15,003 nt of DNA from Oscillospiraceae bacterium (GTDB lineage: Bacteria > Bacillota > Clostridia > Oscillospirales > Ruminococcaceae). The DNA is taken from the NCBI GenBank assembly GCA_017396055.1, contig JAFQND010000262.1:1-15003 (forward strand). The letters run 5' to 3'. The translations under genes were made by a program, and so were the position numbers. How positions within the stretch are numbered: the stretch's first letter is position 1; every line of letters starts with the position of its first letter. Below the pieces are notes generated by a model. That model saw only the letters and a list, made by a program, of their open reading frames with translations, did not search any database and had not been told where the DNA came from. Below are positions 3,715 to 13,237 of this stretch, piece after piece.

Positions 3715-4896
3715 ATGAAAAGTCCTTTTAAATATCCTGCCGACGGCATGACCGCCCGACAGCCCTTTCCCGCCGGTACTGCCGGCAGTGAGAATTTCCG
3801 GATACCCGGCCTTGTGACACTGGACGACGGCACCCTTGTCGCCACTGCCGATGTTCGCTGGGACTCCGAGTCGGACGGCGGCGGTATGGATCTGATCGTT
3901 TCCCGTTCCACGGACGGCGGTGAGACCTGGCACTATACTTTTCCTGCCTATCTGGGCGACAACGGTGATCGCTACAGCCCCTCTTCCTCTACACTGATGG
4001 ACCCGCTGATGATCACCGACGGCAGAAAGCTCTGGCTCTTTGCCGATATTTTCCCGGCGGGATATTCGCTGACCACCGCTTGTACCGACCACGCTTTTTC
4101 GGACCTGCGCACCGGCTTTGACAGCGAGGGAAGACTTCTGCTGACCGCGGACGGCGAAAATTACGATCACTGTCTTTCGGACGGAAAGATCTTCAAAGAC
4201 GGGAAAGCTCTTTCCGGCATCACGGTGGACGGCAGCTTTGATATCTATGAAAACGGCGGATATAAGGGCAATCTCTTCTTTGCCGATGCACCCTTCCGTG
4301 CCTTCCCCGCAAGCTATATCTGCATGCAGACTTCCGAAGACGGCGGCAAAAGCTGGTCCGGTTTCTCCCTTGTCCCCGTCAAGGAGGAGGGAAAGAAGTT
4401 TACGGTCATCGGTCCCGGCAGAGGCATCGTCACCTCCCGCGGCGAGCTGATGTTCTCGGCTTATGACGGCGAAAATGTCTATCTTGTTTTCTCCAAAGAC
4501 GGCGGAAAGAGCTGGAAAAAAATCACCTCTCCCTTTGCCGGCGGCGAGAGCCAGCCGGTCGAGCTCCCGAACGGCAATATCCGTCTGATGGTCCGCACCG
4601 GCGGCATCAACCAGATCTGCTATATCGATTTTGTCCGGACGGAAAACGGTCTGCAGCCCGGCGAGCTTGTGAAGACCGGCGTGCTCAATTTCTCTCAGTG
4701 CATGGTATCCGCTCTGCGGGTGACCCGCGGGGAGAAGGAATATCTGCTCATCTGCTGCCCCTCTGACCACACCGGCGGAGATTGGGGCGGACGCTTCAAC
4801 GGTAAGGTCTATATCTTCCTTTGGGTGAAAACTGTGAGATGGTGCTTGAGGACGCAGTGCAGCTCAACGACAGCTTCTTTGCCTATTCCTGTATGA
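3715..4896 (+). CDS. Sialidase (GH33-like exo-alpha-sialidase), C-terminus frameshifted
   Basis: A six-bladed beta-propeller sialidase. The FRIP motif (residues 28-31) provides the first arginine of the carboxylate-binding triad. Three Asp boxes are visible: STDGGETW (65-72), SEDGGKSW and SKDGGKSW. Later come GESQPVELPNGNIRLMVRTGG-like strands with the acidic residue and another arginine. Start chosen: ATG at 3715, with GAGGAGA (3702-3708) just upstream inside the MBL stop region. No signal peptide is seen, so if made it is likely intracellular, acting on imported sialylated material. After the YIFL codons at about 4819 the frame runs into unrelated residues and stops at 4896, while the true C-terminus continues in another frame to 5018. 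The lost part contains the expected Tyr/Glu catalytic pair, so this product would probably be inactive unless the shift is a sequence error. Confidence 0.85.
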   Translation: MKSPFKYPADGMTARQPFPAGTAGSENFRIPGLVTLDDGTLVATADVRWDSESDGGGMDLIVSRSTDGGETWHYTFPAYLGDNGDRYSPSSSTLMDPLMITDGRKLWLFADIFPAGYSLTTACTDHAFSDLRTGFDSEGRLLLTADGENYDHCLSDGKIFKDGKALSGITVDGSFDIYENGGYKGNLFFADAPFRAFPASYICMQTSEDGGKSWSGFSLVPVKEEGKKFTVIGPGRGIVTSRGELMFSAYDGENVYLVFSKDGGKSWKKITSPFAGGESQPVELPNGNIRLMVRTGGINQICYIDFVRTENGLQPGELVKTGVLNFSQCMVSALRVTRGEKEYLLICCPSDHTGGDWGGRFNGKVYIFLWVKTVRWCLRTQCSSTTASLPIPV

Positions 4897-5018
4897 CAGA
4901 GATGTCCGACGGCTCGATCGGCATTCTTTATGAAGACGACTGCACCGGTTATAAAGCGGGCAACTATTTCGGCAAGCGTTCGCAGATCACCTGGAAAAAT
5001 CTCGGAAAAATCGTTTGA
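4821..5018 (+). pseudogene. Displaced C-terminal segment of the sialidase
   Basis: This frame reads LGENCEMVLEDAV, then FAYSCMTEMSDGSIGILYED, and ends in NLGKIV before TGA at 5016-5018. The SCMTEMSDGSIGILYE part is a typical last-blade sialidase sequence holding the nucleophilic tyrosine and its partner glutamate. It has no start or ribosome binding site of its own. Adding one T to the TTTGGG stretch at 4820-4825 would join it to the frame starting at 3715 and give a sialidase of about 434 residues. So one base is missing, in nature or in the assembly. Confidence 0.8.
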
Positions 5019-8597: not shown

Positions 8598-8641
8598 GCA
8601 GCCGGCGTCCGGCTGCGGCGCGGCTCACAGCCGCTGGATAT
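8598..8641. repeat. Two adjacent hairpins with a trace of a third SDR stop-codon region
   Basis: GCAGCCGG (8598-8605) pairs with CCGGCTGC (8609-8616) around a 3-base loop, and GCGGCT (8620-8625) pairs with AGCCGC (8629-8634) around CAC. On the minus strand the second hairpin overlaps codons reading H-I-Q-R-L-stop, as at the end of the SDR gene and its remnant, though the codons before it do not match. It may be a very short third remnant or the terminal hairpin alone. It lies in the leader of the flavoprotein gene, 46 bases or more before its start. Confidence 0.5.
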
Positions 8642-8692
8642 GGGAAAATATACCTTGAAAAACAGCCACGTTATTCAGAGGCAGTCAGTACG

Positions 8693-8759
8693 CAAGAATG
8701 ACGTCTTTTCGAAGCAAAGCTGAGAAAAGCCCGGTCCCTCTGACCGGGAGACATTCTTG
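8693..8759. repeat. Structured three-way-junction element B
   Basis: A closing stem pairs CAAGAATG (8693-8700) with CATTCTTG (8752-8759). Inside are two adjoining hairpins. One pairs CTTTTC (8705-8710) with GAAAAG (8724-8729), with an inner AGC/GCT pairing and facing GA dinucleotides. The other is a 7-bp CCCGGTC (8730-8736) with GACCGGG (8742-8748) and a 5-base loop. The plan is that of elements A (8894-8981) and C (13107-13237). No coding content is seen here. Confidence 0.6.
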
Positions 8760-8762
8760 AAA

Positions 8763-8787
8763 ATTCAGCGGCTTACAGCCGCTGAAT
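8763..8787 (-). terminator. Hairpin terminator containing the stop codon of the SDR remnant
   Basis: ATTCAGCGGC (8763-8772) and GCCGCTGAAT (8778-8787) form a perfect 10-bp stem with a 5-base loop. On the minus strand it is followed by TTTC, and the TAA stop of the truncated SDR copy sits in the loop. The last codons of the gene thus form one arm. The intact SDR gene at 8988 has lost the second arm. Confidence 0.6.
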
Positions 8788-8901
8788 GTGGAAGCCGCCG
8801 TCAGCATTGAGTACAGTGCCCGTGCCGAAATCCAGCATACCCGAGCATGCCGCCAGAACACATTTTGCCACATCTTCCGGCTGTCCGAAGCGCCGGATGG
8901 G
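8773..8901 (-). pseudogene. Truncated copy of the 3' end of the SDR gene
   Basis: These 129 bases repeat 8988-9116, the last 42 codons plus stop of the intact SDR gene. They encode the same peptide from PIRRFGQPEDV to GGFHIQRL. I count eight base differences. One is in the stop codon (TAA against TGA) and the other seven are all synonymous. The match ends abruptly at 8901 inside a palindromic element, and the rest of the gene is missing. There is no start codon or ribosome binding site of its own. It is best read as the stump of a second SDR paralogue or of a partial duplication with gene conversion. Confidence 0.8.
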
Positions 8902-8981
8902 AGAAAAGAATCCGGACATCCAAATCCCGCAGGGATTTATGGCGCGGTCGGAAGACCGCGAGGATTCTGGGGACCCATCCG
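8894..8981. repeat. Structured three-way-junction element A
   Basis: Outer arms CGGATGGG (8894-8901) and CCCATCCG (8974-8981) pair, then AGAATCC (8907-8913) with GGATTCT (8962-8968). Inside are two hairpins: AAATCCC (8922-8928) with GGGATTT (8932-8938), and CGCGGTC (8943-8949) with GACCGCG (8954-8960) closed by a GGAA loop. It lies between the intact SDR stop and its truncated copy. The left outer arm is part of the SDR remnant's coding sequence. It carries the same landmarks as element C read on the minus strand. Confidence 0.65.
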
Positions 8982-8987
8982 TAAAAA

Positions 8988-9758
8988 TCACAGCCGCTGA
9001 ATGTGGAATCCACCATCGGCATTGAGTACAGTGCCCGTGCCGAAATCCAGCATACCAGAGCAGGCTGCCAGAACACATTTTGCCACATCTTCCGGCTGTC
9101 CGAAGCGCCGGATGGGGGTGATTCCTTCACTGATAAGTTTTTCGTACTTATCCTTCACCACTGCGGTCATATCGGTGAGGATGATGCCGGGGCGTACCTC
9201 GAAAACGGGAATGCCCTCTTCGGCAAGGCGGTCGGCGAAAAGCTGGGTGGTCATCGAGATGCCTGCCTTGGAGATACAGTATTCGCCTCTCGACACAGAG
9301 GAGGTATAAGCGGAGATGGACGAGATATTGATGATGCGGGGGGTGTAATCCGCAAGACCGCGCTTTTTCATCTCGATCATTTTATTGGCACCCAGCTGAC
9401 ACATGAAGAAAGTGCCCTCCAGATTGATGCGCATCAGCCGTTCAAAGCTCTCTTCGGTAGTTTCCAGCACATCCAGCCGCACAGCACAGGCCACACCGGC
9501 GTTGTTGACCAGCACGTCAAGACGGCCCCATTTTTCGTCGGCAGCAGCGATCAGTTTTCTGCGGTCTTCCGGTACCGAGATGTCACAGCGGATATAATCG
9601 GCTTCACCCAGCCGGTTCAGCTCTTCCATAAGATCGGTGACCGCTTCTTTTTCCGCAGTGGCACAGAGCAGCACGGCATAACCGTTTTTCAGAAGCTCTT
9701 TTGCAATGCCAAGGCCGATGCCCCGGCGGGAACCGGTCACGATAGCGGTTTTTTTCAT
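8988..9758 (-). CDS. Short-chain dehydrogenase/reductase (SDR), 3-oxoacyl-ACP-reductase-like
   Basis: A 256-residue classical SDR. The nucleotide-binding motif TGSRRGIG is at residues 8-15, NNAG at 85-88, the catalytic serine in NISSIS (about 147) and the YCISK motif with Tyr160 and Lys164. The GQPEDVAK and NADGGFHIQRL segments are the usual C-terminal end. The RR after TGS hints at NADP(H), but this is weak. Start chosen: the second ATG (9758), seven bases after GAGGAG; the ATG at 9764 would be only two bases from it. It lies 22 bp after the OYE-type gene and is surely co-transcribed with it. It is followed by element A and a second copy of its own 3' end, and unlike that copy it lacks a complete terminator hairpin. 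Annotation as FabG is common for such proteins; context points to a dedicated ketone/alcohol step in the same pathway as the flavoenzymes. Confidence 0.9.
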   Translation of the reverse strand: MKKTAIVTGSRRGIGLGIAKELLKNGYAVLLCATAEKEAVTDLMEELNRLGEADYIRCDISVPEDRRKLIAAADEKWGRLDVLVNNAGVACAVRLDVLETTEESFERLMRINLEGTFFMCQLGANKMIEMKKRGLADYTPRIINISSISAYTSSVSRGEYCISKAGISMTTQLFADRLAEEGIPVFEVRPGIILTDMTAVVKDKYEKLISEGITPIRRFGQPEDVAKCVLAACSGMLDFGTGTVLNADGGFHIQRL

Positions 9759-9780
9759 ATTCATTCTCCTCGAAAACGGT

Positions 9781-11094
9781 TTATTTTCCTTTGCTTACTT
9801 CTCTGAACAGATCAGTGTAATACCGGTCTCTCACCACACATCCCGCGGTGGAGCCGTACCGCATCAGCAGCGAGCATTTACCGCAGGTGATGCAGCATTT
9901 TGCGGGGTCGAGCGGTTCGCCTCTCAGAAGTTTTCCGGCAAATTCCGGATAGGCAAATGCCATCCGTCCAAAGCCCGCTGCCTTGAAACAGCCTTCCTCC
10001 ACGGCGCCCGCGGCCACATTTCCCGCAAACTGTCTGGGATAGCTCAGTCCCGAGCCGATGACACACAGATCGGGATACTCTTTCTGTACTTCGCCGACAC
10101 AGCGGATGATCCGCTCCAGTCCCACAAGGGGATCTTCGGTCAGTTCGTACGCCTGTACATCGGCGGGACGGTTGACATGGGGGTTCACATAGGGGTTGCC
10201 GATGGTGATGTCCAGAAGCTTTACGCCAAGCTCTTTATGGAGGATGCCGACGAGCTTTTTGCCTTCCGTCAGGTCGGGAACAAGTCCGCCTTCCTTTGTC
10301 ACGCCGAATCCGTAGGGATAGGGGAAGCCGTCATAGACATTCATCCGTGAAGTGACAAGAAAATCGCTGCCGGTGGCCGCTTTTGCCGCCATGATGCCCT
10401 CACGGAGCAGGCGGGTGCGGTTTTCAAAACTGCCGCCGTAGTCGCCTTCACGTTCATAGGCCGACAGCAGTTCAGAGTTGAGATACCGGTGGCAGGCCTT
10501 GATATCCACGCCGTCAAAACCTGCTTTTTCGGCAAGACGGGCCGCTTCACCGAATTTTTCGGTCAGCGCGCGAAGGTAATCGTCGGTGACGATGCGGCTT
10601 TTATCGATGGGGTTGTCCTTTTCGAACAGGGGATTGTTATAGGCGATCATCGGAGCAGGAACGCCTTCCGGTTTGGAATAGCGGCCCGAATGGGTGGCCT
10701 GCATGATGATCAGCGGCGCGGGATTGCCAGCTTTTACCGCTTCTTCGCGGATGCGGCCGGTCAGGGCCTTGAAGCTGTCGAGGTTTTTTTCGGTGATCCA
10801 GGACTGACGGGGATTTGCTCTGCCTTCGGGCAGAACGGCACAGGCCTCAAACCAGATCAGTCCTGCGCCCGAGCGGGCAAAGCGGTCGTATCTTCTGATC
10901 GTCAGTTCGGCAGGTGAGCCGTCGCTGCTGGAATCGCAGCCTTCCATCGGCTGGATAACGATCCGGTTGGGAAGCGTCTTTGCCCCGAGACTTACCGGTT
11001 CGGCCAGCGATGACACGCGGTCGGAAAAGGGAATATGAAGATGAAGGGATTCTGCTTCGGTGAGAAACTCCTCAGCGGTTTTGTAATGGAACAT
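9781..11094 (-). CDS. NADH:flavin oxidoreductase, Old Yellow Enzyme type with a 4Fe-4S motif
   Basis: A 437-residue TIM-barrel ene-reductase. LPNRIVIQPMEGCDSS is the FMN-binding first strand, IIMQATHSGRYS the second, and GFDGVDIKACHRYLNSELLS with DYGGSFENRTRL the family signature. Near the end, C401-x2-C404-x2-C407-x11-C419 fits the Fe-S cluster of the 2,4-dienoyl-CoA reductase/trimethylamine dehydrogenase branch. The C-terminal FAD/NAD(P)H domain of those enzymes (total about 650-670 residues) is absent, so electrons must arrive from another protein. GGAAGGAG lies six bases before the ATG. It is first in the minus operon, ahead of the SDR and the FRD-type flavoprotein. Expected chemistry is reduction of an activated C=C bond; the substrate is not known. 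Confidence 0.9.
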   Translation of the reverse strand: MFHYKTAEEFLTEAESLHLHIPFSDRVSSLAEPVSLGAKTLPNRIVIQPMEGCDSSSDGSPAELTIRRYDRFARSGAGLIWFEACAVLPEGRANPRQSWITEKNLDSFKALTGRIREEAVKAGNPAPLIIMQATHSGRYSKPEGVPAPMIAYNNPLFEKDNPIDKSRIVTDDYLRALTEKFGEAARLAEKAGFDGVDIKACHRYLNSELLSAYEREGDYGGSFENRTRLLREGIMAAKAATGSDFLVTSRMNVYDGFPYPYGFGVTKEGGLVPDLTEGKKLVGILHKELGVKLLDITIGNPYVNPHVNRPADVQAYELTEDPLVGLERIIRCVGEVQKEYPDLCVIGSGLSYPRQFAGNVAAGAVEEGCFKAAGFGRMAFAYPEFAGKLLRGEPLDPAKCCITCGKCSLLMRYGSTAGCVVRDRYYTDLFREVSKGK

Positions 11095-11144
11095 ATAATA
11101 CTCCTTCCGTCAGAAAACTCTGCACAATCGTCTGATTTTATGAT

Positions 11145-11173
11145 ACAATAAATACGATAAAATTTGTATGCAA
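11145..11173 (-). promoter_or_regulatory. Candidate promoter of the OYE-SDR-flavoprotein operon
   Basis: On the minus strand TTGCAT (11173-11168), a 17-base spacer and TATTGT (11150-11145), about 50 bases before the ATG at 11094. The -10 is weak (four of six), which would fit activator dependence. Confidence 0.45.
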
Positions 11174-11186
11174 AAATCGTTCTCCC

Positions 11187-11257
11187 ATATGTAAAATTTG
11201 CGGTTTGCTTTTTGGGCAGATGTACTATACCGCAGTTTTTACATATCAAAAAGCAAA
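11187..11257. promoter_or_regulatory. Interleaved inverted repeats, candidate AraC-type operator between divergent operons
   Basis: Arm ATATGTAAAATTTGCGGT (11187-11204) matches the reverse complement of ACCGCAGTTTTTACATAT (11229-11246) at 16 of 18 positions, centres 42 bp apart (about four helical turns). A second, perfect 11-bp pair, TTTGCTTTTTG (11204-11214) and CAAAAAGCAAA (11247-11257), is interleaved with it. The arms surround the candidate plus-strand promoter and lie upstream of the minus one. Two 18-bp sites are the size expected for AraC-family binding. Confidence 0.65.
11204..11231 (+). promoter_or_regulatory. Candidate weak promoter of the TIM-barrel/dehydrogenase/AraC operon
   Basis: TTTGCT (11204-11209), a 16-base spacer and TATACC (11226-11231). 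Both boxes are imperfect and the -10 overlaps the right arm of the inverted repeat, suggesting regulated transcription. The predicted leader before the ATG at 11327 is about 90 bases. Confidence 0.4.
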
Positions 11258-11326
11258 AATGATATTCACAAAACGACCGATAAGCGGTATGCTGAAAGAG
11301 GAACAGACAAAAAAGGAGCGATCAAA

Positions 11327-12079
11327 ATGCTGACAGGACTGACTTCCATTACTTTCCGGCAGCTGACACCCGACGAGATCATTGCGCTGACCGCAAAGGC
11401 CGGCCTTGACGGTATTGAATGGGGCGGAGATGTTCACGTTCCGCCTGCTTCGCGGGAGCTTGCCGCCCTGATCGCGGAAAAAACCAAAGCCGCCGGTCTG
11501 AAGGTACTTTCCTACGGTTCTTACTGGCGCTGTGATGATCCAGACGCTTTTGATGGTATTCTGGAGAGTGCAAAGGCGCTGGGCGCGCCCATCATCCGGG
11601 TTTGGACCGGCAGCAAAACCATCGATGAGATCACCGGTGAAGAGTTCGACAGGCTGGTTCTGAATATAAGCACCGCCGCTGAAAAAGCCGCTGACTGCGG
11701 TATCAGCATCGCCTTTGAATATCACCGCGGAACGATGACCCAGACAAAAGAAGGAGCCCGCTGGCTTCTGGAAAAACTGGCCGCCGAAAATGTCACCACC
11801 TACTGGCAGCCCAATCCCGATATCACGTTTGAGGAACAGCTTCGGGAGATCGACATGCTGCGCCCCTTTATTTCTTATCTTCACGTCTTCGCCTGGGAAA
11901 AGGGGAATATCCGTTTTCCGCTGGAACACGCCGCCGGAAAATGGAAGGAATATTTCACCCGTGCACGGGCAAAAGCCGCGCTGATCGAATTTGTCGCCGG
12001 CGATACGCCCGAACAGTTCCTTGCCGATGCACAGGTGCTGAAAAAGCTGGCTGCCGGATATGACCTTCAGGAGGAATGA
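11327..12079 (+). CDS. Sugar phosphate isomerase/epimerase family TIM-barrel protein
   Basis: A 250-residue TIM barrel. Start chosen: ATG at 11327, eight bases after AAGGAG (313-318 of this kilobase, 11313-11318); the frame is open further upstream but without a ribosome binding site. LTSITFRQLTPDEI is the first strand, DGIEWGGDVHVPP the second, then FEYHRG (Glu ligand), YWQPNPD where the Asp/His strand usually lies, LHVFAWE (His) and LIEFVAGDT (last Glu). It belongs to the AP_endonuc_2 family but to a different branch from the tandem pair at 934-2670. The Gln in WQPNPD replaces the more usual Asp. Three bases separate its stop from the next start, so it is translationally linked to the dehydrogenase. 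Substrate unknown; a sugar or keto-sugar acid is plausible. Confidence 0.87.
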   Translation: MLTGLTSITFRQLTPDEIIALTAKAGLDGIEWGGDVHVPPASRELAALIAEKTKAAGLKVLSYGSYWRCDDPDAFDGILESAKALGAPIIRVWTGSKTIDEITGEEFDRLVLNISTAAEKAADCGISIAFEYHRGTMTQTKEGARWLLEKLAAENVTTYWQPNPDITFEEQLREIDMLRPFISYLHVFAWEKGNIRFPLEHAAGKWKEYFTRARAKAALIEFVAGDTPEQFLADAQVLKKLAAGYDLQEE

Positions 12080-12082
12080 ATC

Positions 12083-13108
12083 ATGAGACCCACTGCCGTA
12101 TATATGACCGATACCAATTCTGTCACTTTTCACGATGTATACCCTGACAGCACAATGGAAAAGATCAGAGAGCTCTGTGATATTCCGGACGGGGTCATCA
12201 CCTCGGCCAATCTTGAGGAGCATCGCGCCCTTCTCGCTGAAACGGAGTATATCTTCTCCACCTGGGGGATGCTCTCTCTGACCGAAGAACAGATCGCCGA
12301 TTACCTTCCCAGACTGAAAGCGGTTTTCTATGCTGCCGGATCGGTGCAGTATTTCGCCCGTCCTTTTCTGAACAAAGGCATCAGAGTGTTCAGCGCCTGG
12401 GCTGCCAACGCGGTGCCGGTAGCCGAATATACCATCGCGCAGATCATCCTTTCCGGTAAGGGAATGTTCCGCGATATGCGGATGATGCGCGAAGCAAAAG
12501 AAAAACATGCCGCCCGTGCCGCAGCCGCCGCCTATACCCACACGCTGCCCTGCAACTATGGTGTAAAAGTGGGTCTTCTGGGCGCCGGCATGATCGGAAG
12601 ACTGGTCATGAAGATGCTGATGGACTATGATTTTGAAGTGCTGGTCTATGATCCCTTTGTGGATGACGGCGTACTGGCGCAGTACGGTGCCCGCCGCGCT
12701 TCCCTCGAAGAGATCTTCTCGGAATGTCAGATCATCTCCAATCATATCGCCAATCTGCCCACTACCGTGGGAATGCTGGATTATGCTCTCTTCTCGCGGA
12801 TGAAAGATAATGCCGTCTTTATCAATACCGGCCGCGGTGCACAGGTGGTGGAGGATGACCTGATCCGTGCCCTGCGGGAAAAGCCCGACCGCACCGCTCT
12901 GTTGGATGTGACCTGGCCTGAACCCCCTGCCGAAGACAGCCCCCTCTGGGAGCTTGACAATGTTTTTCTGACCCCTCATATCGCCGGCAGCCTGAAAAAC
13001 GAGACCGCCCGCATGAGCGCTTATATGGAGGAAGAATGCAGAAAATTCCTTGCCGGAGAGCCGTGCTCTTATGAAGTGAGCATGAAAATGCTGGAGACGA
13101 TGGCCTAG
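12083..13108 (+). CDS. D-isomer-specific 2-hydroxyacid dehydrogenase family protein
   Basis: A 341-residue protein. The NAD-binding motif VGLLGAGMIG is at residues 163-172 with the acidic residue Asp190 (VYDPF). The catalytic residues of the family are all present: Arg251 in NTGRG, Glu280 in TWPEPP and His299 in TPHIAGS. The substrate-binding N-terminal domain flanks it (first ~110 residues). It would oxidise a 2-hydroxy acid or reduce a 2-keto acid, or act on a phosphorylated relative, with NAD(H). AGGAGG (in the last codons of the upstream gene) precedes the ATG. An alanine-rich stretch (AARAAAAAY) near residues 143-151 sits where the family has a linker. It is in an operon with the TIM-barrel gene and probably the AraC regulator, although element C lies between. 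Its TAG overlaps the first bases of element C. Confidence 0.9.
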   Translation: MRPTAVYMTDTNSVTFHDVYPDSTMEKIRELCDIPDGVITSANLEEHRALLAETEYIFSTWGMLSLTEEQIADYLPRLKAVFYAAGSVQYFARPFLNKGIRVFSAWAANAVPVAEYTIAQIILSGKGMFRDMRMMREAKEKHAARAAAAAYTHTLPCNYGVKVGLLGAGMIGRLVMKMLMDYDFEVLVYDPFVDDGVLAQYGARRASLEEIFSECQIISNHIANLPTTVGMLDYALFSRMKDNAVFINTGRGAQVVEDDLIRALREKPDRTALLDVTWPEPPAEDSPLWELDNVFLTPHIAGSLKNETARMSAYMEEECRKFLAGEPCSYEVSMKMLETMA

Positions 13109-13237
13109 ACTAAGAAAACGGGGTTTTCTTCGTCTGCAGCAATCCCTCGCATCCGGAGCGGATGCGGTTTTGTGGGCCTATGGCCCGCAAAACATGGGAT
13201 TCCTGCGCGTGGTGCCTCGGCTGCAGTTTTCTAGTCT
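13107..13237. repeat. Structured element C filling the dehydrogenase-AraC intergenic region
   Basis: A closing stem GCAG-C-AATCCC (13136-13146) with GGGATT-C-CTGC (13196-13206), one mismatch, encloses two hairpins. One is CGCATCC (13148-13154) with GGATGCG (13160-13166). The other is an 11-bp stem TTTTGTGGGCC (13168-13178) with GGCCCGCAAAA (13182-13192), including one T-G pair. Outside it, 13107-13119 can pair with either 13123-13135 (local hairpin) or 13226-13237 (long-range stem), which exclude each other. CTGCAG occurs at both ends (13134, 13221). No gene is seen here. Confidence 0.65.

Follow-up and report, generated by a model that had tools for sequence, protein, structure and literature searches.

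A family of palindromic repeats, probably mobile, behind stop codons in two species of one Oscillospiraceae genus

Three copies of one family in the window

The stretch of DNA analysed here (the window; 15,003 nucleotides of contig JAFQND010000262.1, Oscillospiraceae bacterium) carries three intergenic elements, A, B and C, whose cores share a predicted three-way-junction fold and which are probably copies of a mobile palindromic repeat. The cores of A (8907-8968, minus strand) and B (8690-8761, minus strand) lie behind an SDR gene (8988-9764) and partial copies of its 3' end, and the core of C (13135-13208, plus strand) lies behind a gene predicted to encode a 2-hydroxyacid dehydrogenase.

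A covariance model built from five copies, none of them from the window (R1), detected A with 57.1 bits (E 5.7e-13) and B with 48.3 bits (E 1.2e-10). C was not among the R1 matches at E up to 10 and was detected, with filters off, by a second model (R2), for which 38 distinct copies, among them A and B but not C, had been used (47.2 bits, E 4.1e-10). Since each of the three elements was found by a model that had not been trained on it, all of them are members of one family.

The positions and folds of A and C had been proposed in an earlier note on this DNA and were confirmed by the stability of the computed folds, none of 200 shuffled sequences being as stable as the segment 8895-8985 of the minus strand (A, z -5.0) or the segment 13135-13207 of the plus strand (C, z -7.3). 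The third element with the same fold, for which the note had given no coordinates, turned out to be B, slightly outside the range it had covered. Some of its landmarks have to be revised: the CGC...GCG form of hairpin 1 is no rule of the family, in which hairpin 1 varies, in A the ATG described as part of a linker lies in the 3' arm at the base of hairpin 2 (CCAT...GGATG), and the CAT of C aligns elsewhere.

A consists of the outer stem AGAATCC/GGATTCT, hairpin 1 (CGCGGTC/GACCGCG) and hairpin 2 (CCATAAATCCC/GGGATTTGGATG). The outermost palindrome enclosing it (8894-8981, minus strand) was read from the sequence and is paired in the computed fold; its left flank CGGATGGG (8981-8974) pairs with CCCATCCG (8901-8894), which is the start of the downstream gene-end copy. 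Hairpin 2 of B is of the CTTTTC/GAAAAG type. The cores of B and C are preceded by a further hairpin, termed hairpin 0. That of B (ATTCAGCGGCT-GTA-AGCCGCTGAAT, 8763-8787, minus strand) has a fold-back stem of 11 bp, the 5' arm of which coincides with the final codons of the duplicated gene end, and a hairpin of this kind is absent at the orthologous site in four of four relatives. Hairpin 0 of C (AAGAAAAC-GGG-GTTTTCTT, 13112-13130, plus strand; read from the sequence) starts four bases past the stop codon of the dehydrogenase gene without overlapping the coding end (fold-back 0).

Anatomy of the family

The anatomy was compared in 39 copies, 24 from the window's genome (G000, 68% complete; A, B and C included) and 15 from the congener SUG1357 (G005, 86% complete). 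Common landmarks are the outer stem GCAAGAATG/CATTCTTGC, one unpaired T and a tail resembling GCGYGTG, which a loose pattern recognised in 28 of the 39 copies. The parts usually follow each other in the order hairpin 0, TGC, outer stem AAGAATG, unpaired T, hairpin 1, hairpin 2, a GAC-like link, CATTCTTGC and the tail GCGYGTG, with a core length of 62-103 nt throughout (39/39), and the arms of the outer stem are inverted yet internal to the element. Several kinds of hairpin 2 exist: one with a two-base bulge (CCRT...GG-AYGG), a long one (CCGCC...GGCGG), CTTTTC...GAAAAG and short ones (CCGCCC...GGGCGG). In SUG1357 hairpin 0 starts with GCTTTC in all 15 copies read, and the common tail extends about 20 nt beyond the core. 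Furthermore, one contig of the window's genome (C6) carries the outer stem twice as a plain hairpin lacking hairpins 1 and 2.

We also considered intrinsic terminators, which combine a GC-rich hairpin with a run of T. This candidate was rejected, as TTTT was found in none of the 39 copies within 12 nt after the core and in only two at the boundary of hairpin 0. The hairpins 0 of two copies behind tRNA genes (L033 and L041) do resemble terminators.

Copy number and distribution

A blastn search of A against its own genome revealed three further places with 80-89% identity, and pattern scans added others, three of them in SUG1357. R1 yielded 25 matches in the window's genome and 28 in SUG1357 (one being the reverse strand of another), and nothing at E 0.01 in 12 other genomes of the genus. 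According to R2 there are 31 and 30 matches, respectively, at E 0.05, and 27 and 27 at E below 4e-6. The search with covariance models that the earlier note had suggested thus gave 27 copies plus C, about 28 in total, in the window's genome and 27 in SUG1357. In the R2 search one weak match (E 6e-4) was obtained in the congener G006 and none in the other five congeners covered. Absences in these genome searches are soft, as only the first 150, 41 or 12 candidates per genome were scored, and C itself was missed by them. Scoring 38 contigs of the window's genome (181 kb) without filters gave two full copies, both already known, so that the genome-wide count is presumably not far off.

With strict filters and few candidates, one of 119 genomes sampled from the family matched, namely the window's own, and three of 394 sampled from the order, namely the window's own (with only 12 of its copies recovered), G462 (two matches, E 6e-6 and 6e-5) and G484 (one match, E 5e-7). 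The matches in G462 and G484 are not claimed as members, their outer stems being different. Two loci of G462 (L178 and L179) hold multi-hairpin repeats with another outer stem adjoining repeated 3'-end fragments of tRNA genes, possibly a sister family. A pattern scan of wider genome contigs returned 26 stretches, three of them true copies of SUG1357 and 23 chance-like (best E 0.022); this is a weak test of absence, as the pattern catches only three of the 27 copies in SUG1357.

Carriage by phages or plasmids was considered and rejected: viral contigs were scanned three times by pattern, yielding 3, 1 and 30 stretches without a model E below 0.1 (R1 on the three, best E 0.14; R2 on the other 31, no matches), and blastn searches of one copy against phages and of another against plasmids gave no match. 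On contig C276 of the window's genome a gene predicted to encode a Rep protein of the ORF2/G2P family (PF23343; L228:403-1095, minus strand) is located directly upstream of one copy, which may be carried by a small replicon or integrated element.

Position relative to genes and empty sites

Based on gene calls that are rough and derived from codon usage, an upstream gene was assigned to 35 of the 39 copies and is oriented like the element in 28 of these 35 (p 5e-4). Within a limit of 45 nt, a co-oriented stop codon precedes the core by 3-41 nt in 21 of 39 copies, and an oppositely oriented upstream gene was found in none. On the 3' side of three copies, a gene of opposite orientation ends with its stop codon at a distance of 8-11 nt, and the core of one copy (L030) is entered by an open frame. 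Since the attC sites of integrons also follow stop codons, they were considered as well; the copies do not lie in cassette arrays (at most three per contig, plus C).

At several of these sites the relatives lack the element. The gap between the SDR gene and the following FAD-dependent gene measures 435 nt in the window versus 27, 23, 23 and 20 nt in G007, G012, G008 and G001. In the same four genomes the 2-hydroxyacid dehydrogenase gene and the AraC gene are close to each other, whereas about 150 nt including C separate them in the window. Between atpG and atpD the window's genome has 233 nt with a copy, compared to 41-87 nt in eight of nine relatives; in the ninth (G009) the gap of 220 nt is occupied by a different, AT-rich palindromic insert. 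A palindromic repeat of another kind, with GTGAAGAGTGAATAG/AATGAATAGTGAAAAATG-like arms, was observed behind stop codons at L088 (SUG1357), L020, L034 and L184 (G009), in G009 behind atpG.

Near the copy at the ornithine carbamoyltransferase gene, a THF riboswitch was detected (RF01831, 91.5 bits; L018:1108-1210, minus strand).

Fold-back hairpins and duplicated gene ends

The relation between hairpin 0 and the preceding gene was analysed in 15 copies of the window's genome, comprising B, which follows a duplicated gene end, and all 14 that lie within 45 nt of a co-oriented stop codon. Seven of them (L018, L021, L027, L029, L031, L049 and B) form a perfect stem of 7-11 bp the 5' arm of which runs through the last codons, whereas only two of 163 control genes from the same genome reach 7 bp and none exceeds it (p 2e-7). 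At the ends of the SDR, dehydrogenase and atpG genes of relatives the longest fold-back measures 4 bp. The arm in B corresponds to the native C-terminus (HIQRL, identical in relatives); among the seven, a native arm is established for B only, and the last codon at L031 differs from that of relatives. A has no gene-end fold-back hairpin, its left flank pairing instead with the downstream gene-end copy described above.

This copy is part of a duplication. A is flanked by two copies of the 3' end of the SDR gene (8990-9116 and 8775-8901, minus strand), which are 127 nt long and 94% identical with seven differences, the second one being located between A and B. A third, short copy of the SDR tail lies beyond B (8620-8643, minus strand; 24 nt, 88% identity to 8768-8791). 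Likewise, the copy at L039 has the end of another gene on either side (44 columns), and at L022, L046 and L049 only hairpin 0 is repeated downstream.

Covariation

Covariation was evaluated in 38 distinct rows with 28 pairs (949 cells) and compared with 500 shuffles. Of these cells 94.1% pair, as opposed to 33-46% if the structure is slid along the alignment. The check for covariation that the earlier note had called for came out positively, as changes on both sides occur in 26 of 28 pairs (shuffle mean 15.2) and in 179 cells (shuffle mean 48.5), neither value being reached by any of the 500 shuffles.

The pairs contain hardly any wobble. In hairpins 1 and 2 (539 cells) we counted 526 Watson-Crick pairs, one G-T, two A-C and 10 others, compared to 35 G-T in 440 pairs (8%) of twenty tRNAs from contigs of the genus, for which the program marks allowed pairs only. 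Two-sided changes lacking intermediates, together with the symmetry of G-T and A-C, are more readily explained by DNA palindromes, or by ones that are rewritten in a single step, than by an RNA evolving via wobble pairs; the recency of the copies could also partly explain why wobble pairs are scarce.

Interpretation

The strong covariation and an orientation like that of the upstream gene (28 of 35 copies) would be expected of a structured RNA element at the 3' ends of messages, a stabiliser or regulator whose fold is under selection, and the conserved GG bulge of two nucleotides in the CCAT/ATGG-type hairpin 2 might be read in the same way. Taking into account, however, that a single G-T pair occurs among the inner-hairpin cells, that the element is absent at the orthologous gene ends of relatives, that hairpin 2 varies freely in length and sequence and that three copies have the end of an oppositely oriented gene close by on their 3' side, selection for an RNA fold seems unlikely.

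We consider it less likely still that the palindromes grew at their present sites, through template switching when gene ends were replicated, and became alike through gene conversion without any transposition. The fold-back hairpins made from native gene ends, the nested palindromes around A and C, the tandem gene-end duplications at A and L039 and the reduced form on contig C6, consisting of the outer stem only, are all compatible with such a scenario, but the outer stem, tail and hairpin sequences common to unrelated sites require a copied source, and the presence of the element is sporadic (two of 14 congeners). The earlier note had still allowed for a chance likeness. Short palindromes, for instance ordinary intrinsic terminators, are frequent at the gene ends of these genomes, but a resemblance by chance is virtually dismissed by the independent matches of A and B (R1; E 5.7e-13 for A) and C (R2; E 4.1e-10) and by the missing T runs.

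The earlier note had left the choice between a structured RNA family and mobile palindromic repeats. The family itself is supported, and of these two alternatives we favour the mobile palindrome because of the empty sites, the patchy distribution and the near absence of G-T pairs. A, B and C are accordingly regarded as probable copies of a dispersed, non-coding, mobile palindromic DNA repeat, BOX/ERIC-like in kind, with exchangeable hairpins and mostly oriented like the upstream gene, which would have proliferated within two species belonging to the same Oscillospiraceae genus, inserting behind stop codons. The observations behind it are the family, its insertion relative to empty sites, its position and orientation, the covariation nearly free of wobble pairs and, at several sites, the fold-backs with the last bases of the gene itself.

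Several results weigh against this explanation. The number of further pair types (46) shows no excess over the shuffles (mean 42.8, reached by 63 of 500), and the use of related rows in an alignment that had been fitted to the structure makes the controls generous. The outer stem is less perfect than the inner hairpins, with 363 Watson-Crick pairs, three G-T, 12 A-C and 32 mismatches in 410 cells. No fixed target duplication was found: flanking direct repeats occur in five of 34 copies tested and are of unequal length, three of them representing the repeated hairpin 0, and the remaining 29 stay below the threshold. No exact pair of a filled and an empty site fixes the ends of the element, the available pairs being diverged. 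A general excess of palindromes in carrier genomes was considered and not found, since the 17.3 perfect hairpins per 100 kb in the sample of the window's genome lie within the range of 5.6-23.7 seen in relatives. Finally, no mobiliser was found; the search covered one transposase class, the Y1 domain of the IS200/RAYT type (PF01797), with no hit in the window's genome or SUG1357, both of which are incomplete.

If the element is such a mobile palindrome, its folded single-stranded or cruciform DNA might be recognised by an enzyme acting in trans. Fold-back DNA synthesis, self-primed or at hairpin ends, could generate hairpin 0, and the same synthesis may replace whole hairpins while keeping the pairing perfect. 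The element would be chiefly parasitic and might be located behind stop codons since insertion is least harmful there. We tentatively suggest, as a possible though doubtful mechanism, that the end of the host gene is copied in reverse upon each insertion or in its aftermath: an intermediate of folded DNA would become attached past the stop codon through self-primed synthesis at a hairpin end, so that the last bases of the gene would be followed by their perfect inverted copy, and the same process would rewrite entire hairpins in one step. This would represent a mobility of short elements in which secondary structure, not sequence, is inherited.

Many bacteria contain short palindromic repeats, but their origin and movement are understood in few cases only. 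The family offers some 50 copies dated by synteny, which incorporate host gene ends in their folds and the stems of which have changed in both arms almost without intermediates. With these copies, it can be tested directly whether hairpin-templated DNA synthesis underlies the spread and diversification of bacterial palindromes. The family also serves as a warning that wobble-free covariation can stem from DNA palindromes and is no proof of a functional RNA.

Other genes of the window

The window furthermore contains a BNR-repeat (sialidase-like) gene (3715-5018, plus strand), which is open in one frame up to 4896, whereas its apparent C-terminal part (about 4836 to 5018) occupies a different frame, due to either a frameshift or an assembly error. 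It is followed by a gene predicted to encode a BspA-type leucine-rich-repeat protein (PF13306; 5066-6643, plus strand).

Comparison with known repeat families

None of A, B and C matched an Rfam family at E up to 5, and on 19 copy-bearing sources the THF riboswitch, located elsewhere on L018, was the sole match at gathering level. Among the literature matches listed none described such a family in this group, which is no proof of absence. A fixed-length target site duplication, as in miniature inverted-repeat transposable elements (MITEs), is not apparent in the direct repeats (5/34, unequal length).

According to the excerpts of the literature available, the elements closest in kind are BOX, ERIC/RU and REP (PMC3049150, PMC2759123, PMC3733652; also PMC2267715), membership in each being either unproven or at odds with our findings. 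As far as described in the excerpts, REP elements of the GTAG and CGTC types, associated with RAYT transposases, are palindromic, mostly downstream of coding regions and divided into families differing in stems and loops (PMC3733652), all of which resembles the repeat described here. The sequence GACG following hairpin 2 in 20 of 38 rows is the complement of CGTC and is regarded as a lead only. In contrast to the 20-40 bp given there for REP elements, including the GTAG type, the cores are 62-103 nt long in all 39 copies. The Y1 domain associated with REP/RAYT systems was not detected in the two genomes, which are 68% and 86% complete.

The enterobacterial ERIC/RU-1 and YPAL/RU-2 elements are outlined in the accessible part of PMC2759123 as intergenic, rich in stem-loops, non-autonomous and near 130 bp long, and the present family is similar in all of these respects. 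Unlike ERIC-type units, which by that description have terminal TA and a TA target duplication, it shows no constant short duplication. The BOX elements of Streptococcus pneumoniae are characterised in the excerpt of PMC3049150 as modular short interspersed repeats with strong folds that often occur at the 3' ends of genes, sometimes supply or span the stop codon and are thought to be parasitic. With the boxA, boxB and boxC modules, terminal inverted repeats and target duplications reported for them, they differ by description from the single three-way junction with exchangeable hairpins found here, but the present family shares with BOX that it is short, interspersed, modular, strongly folded and located at the 3' ends of genes.

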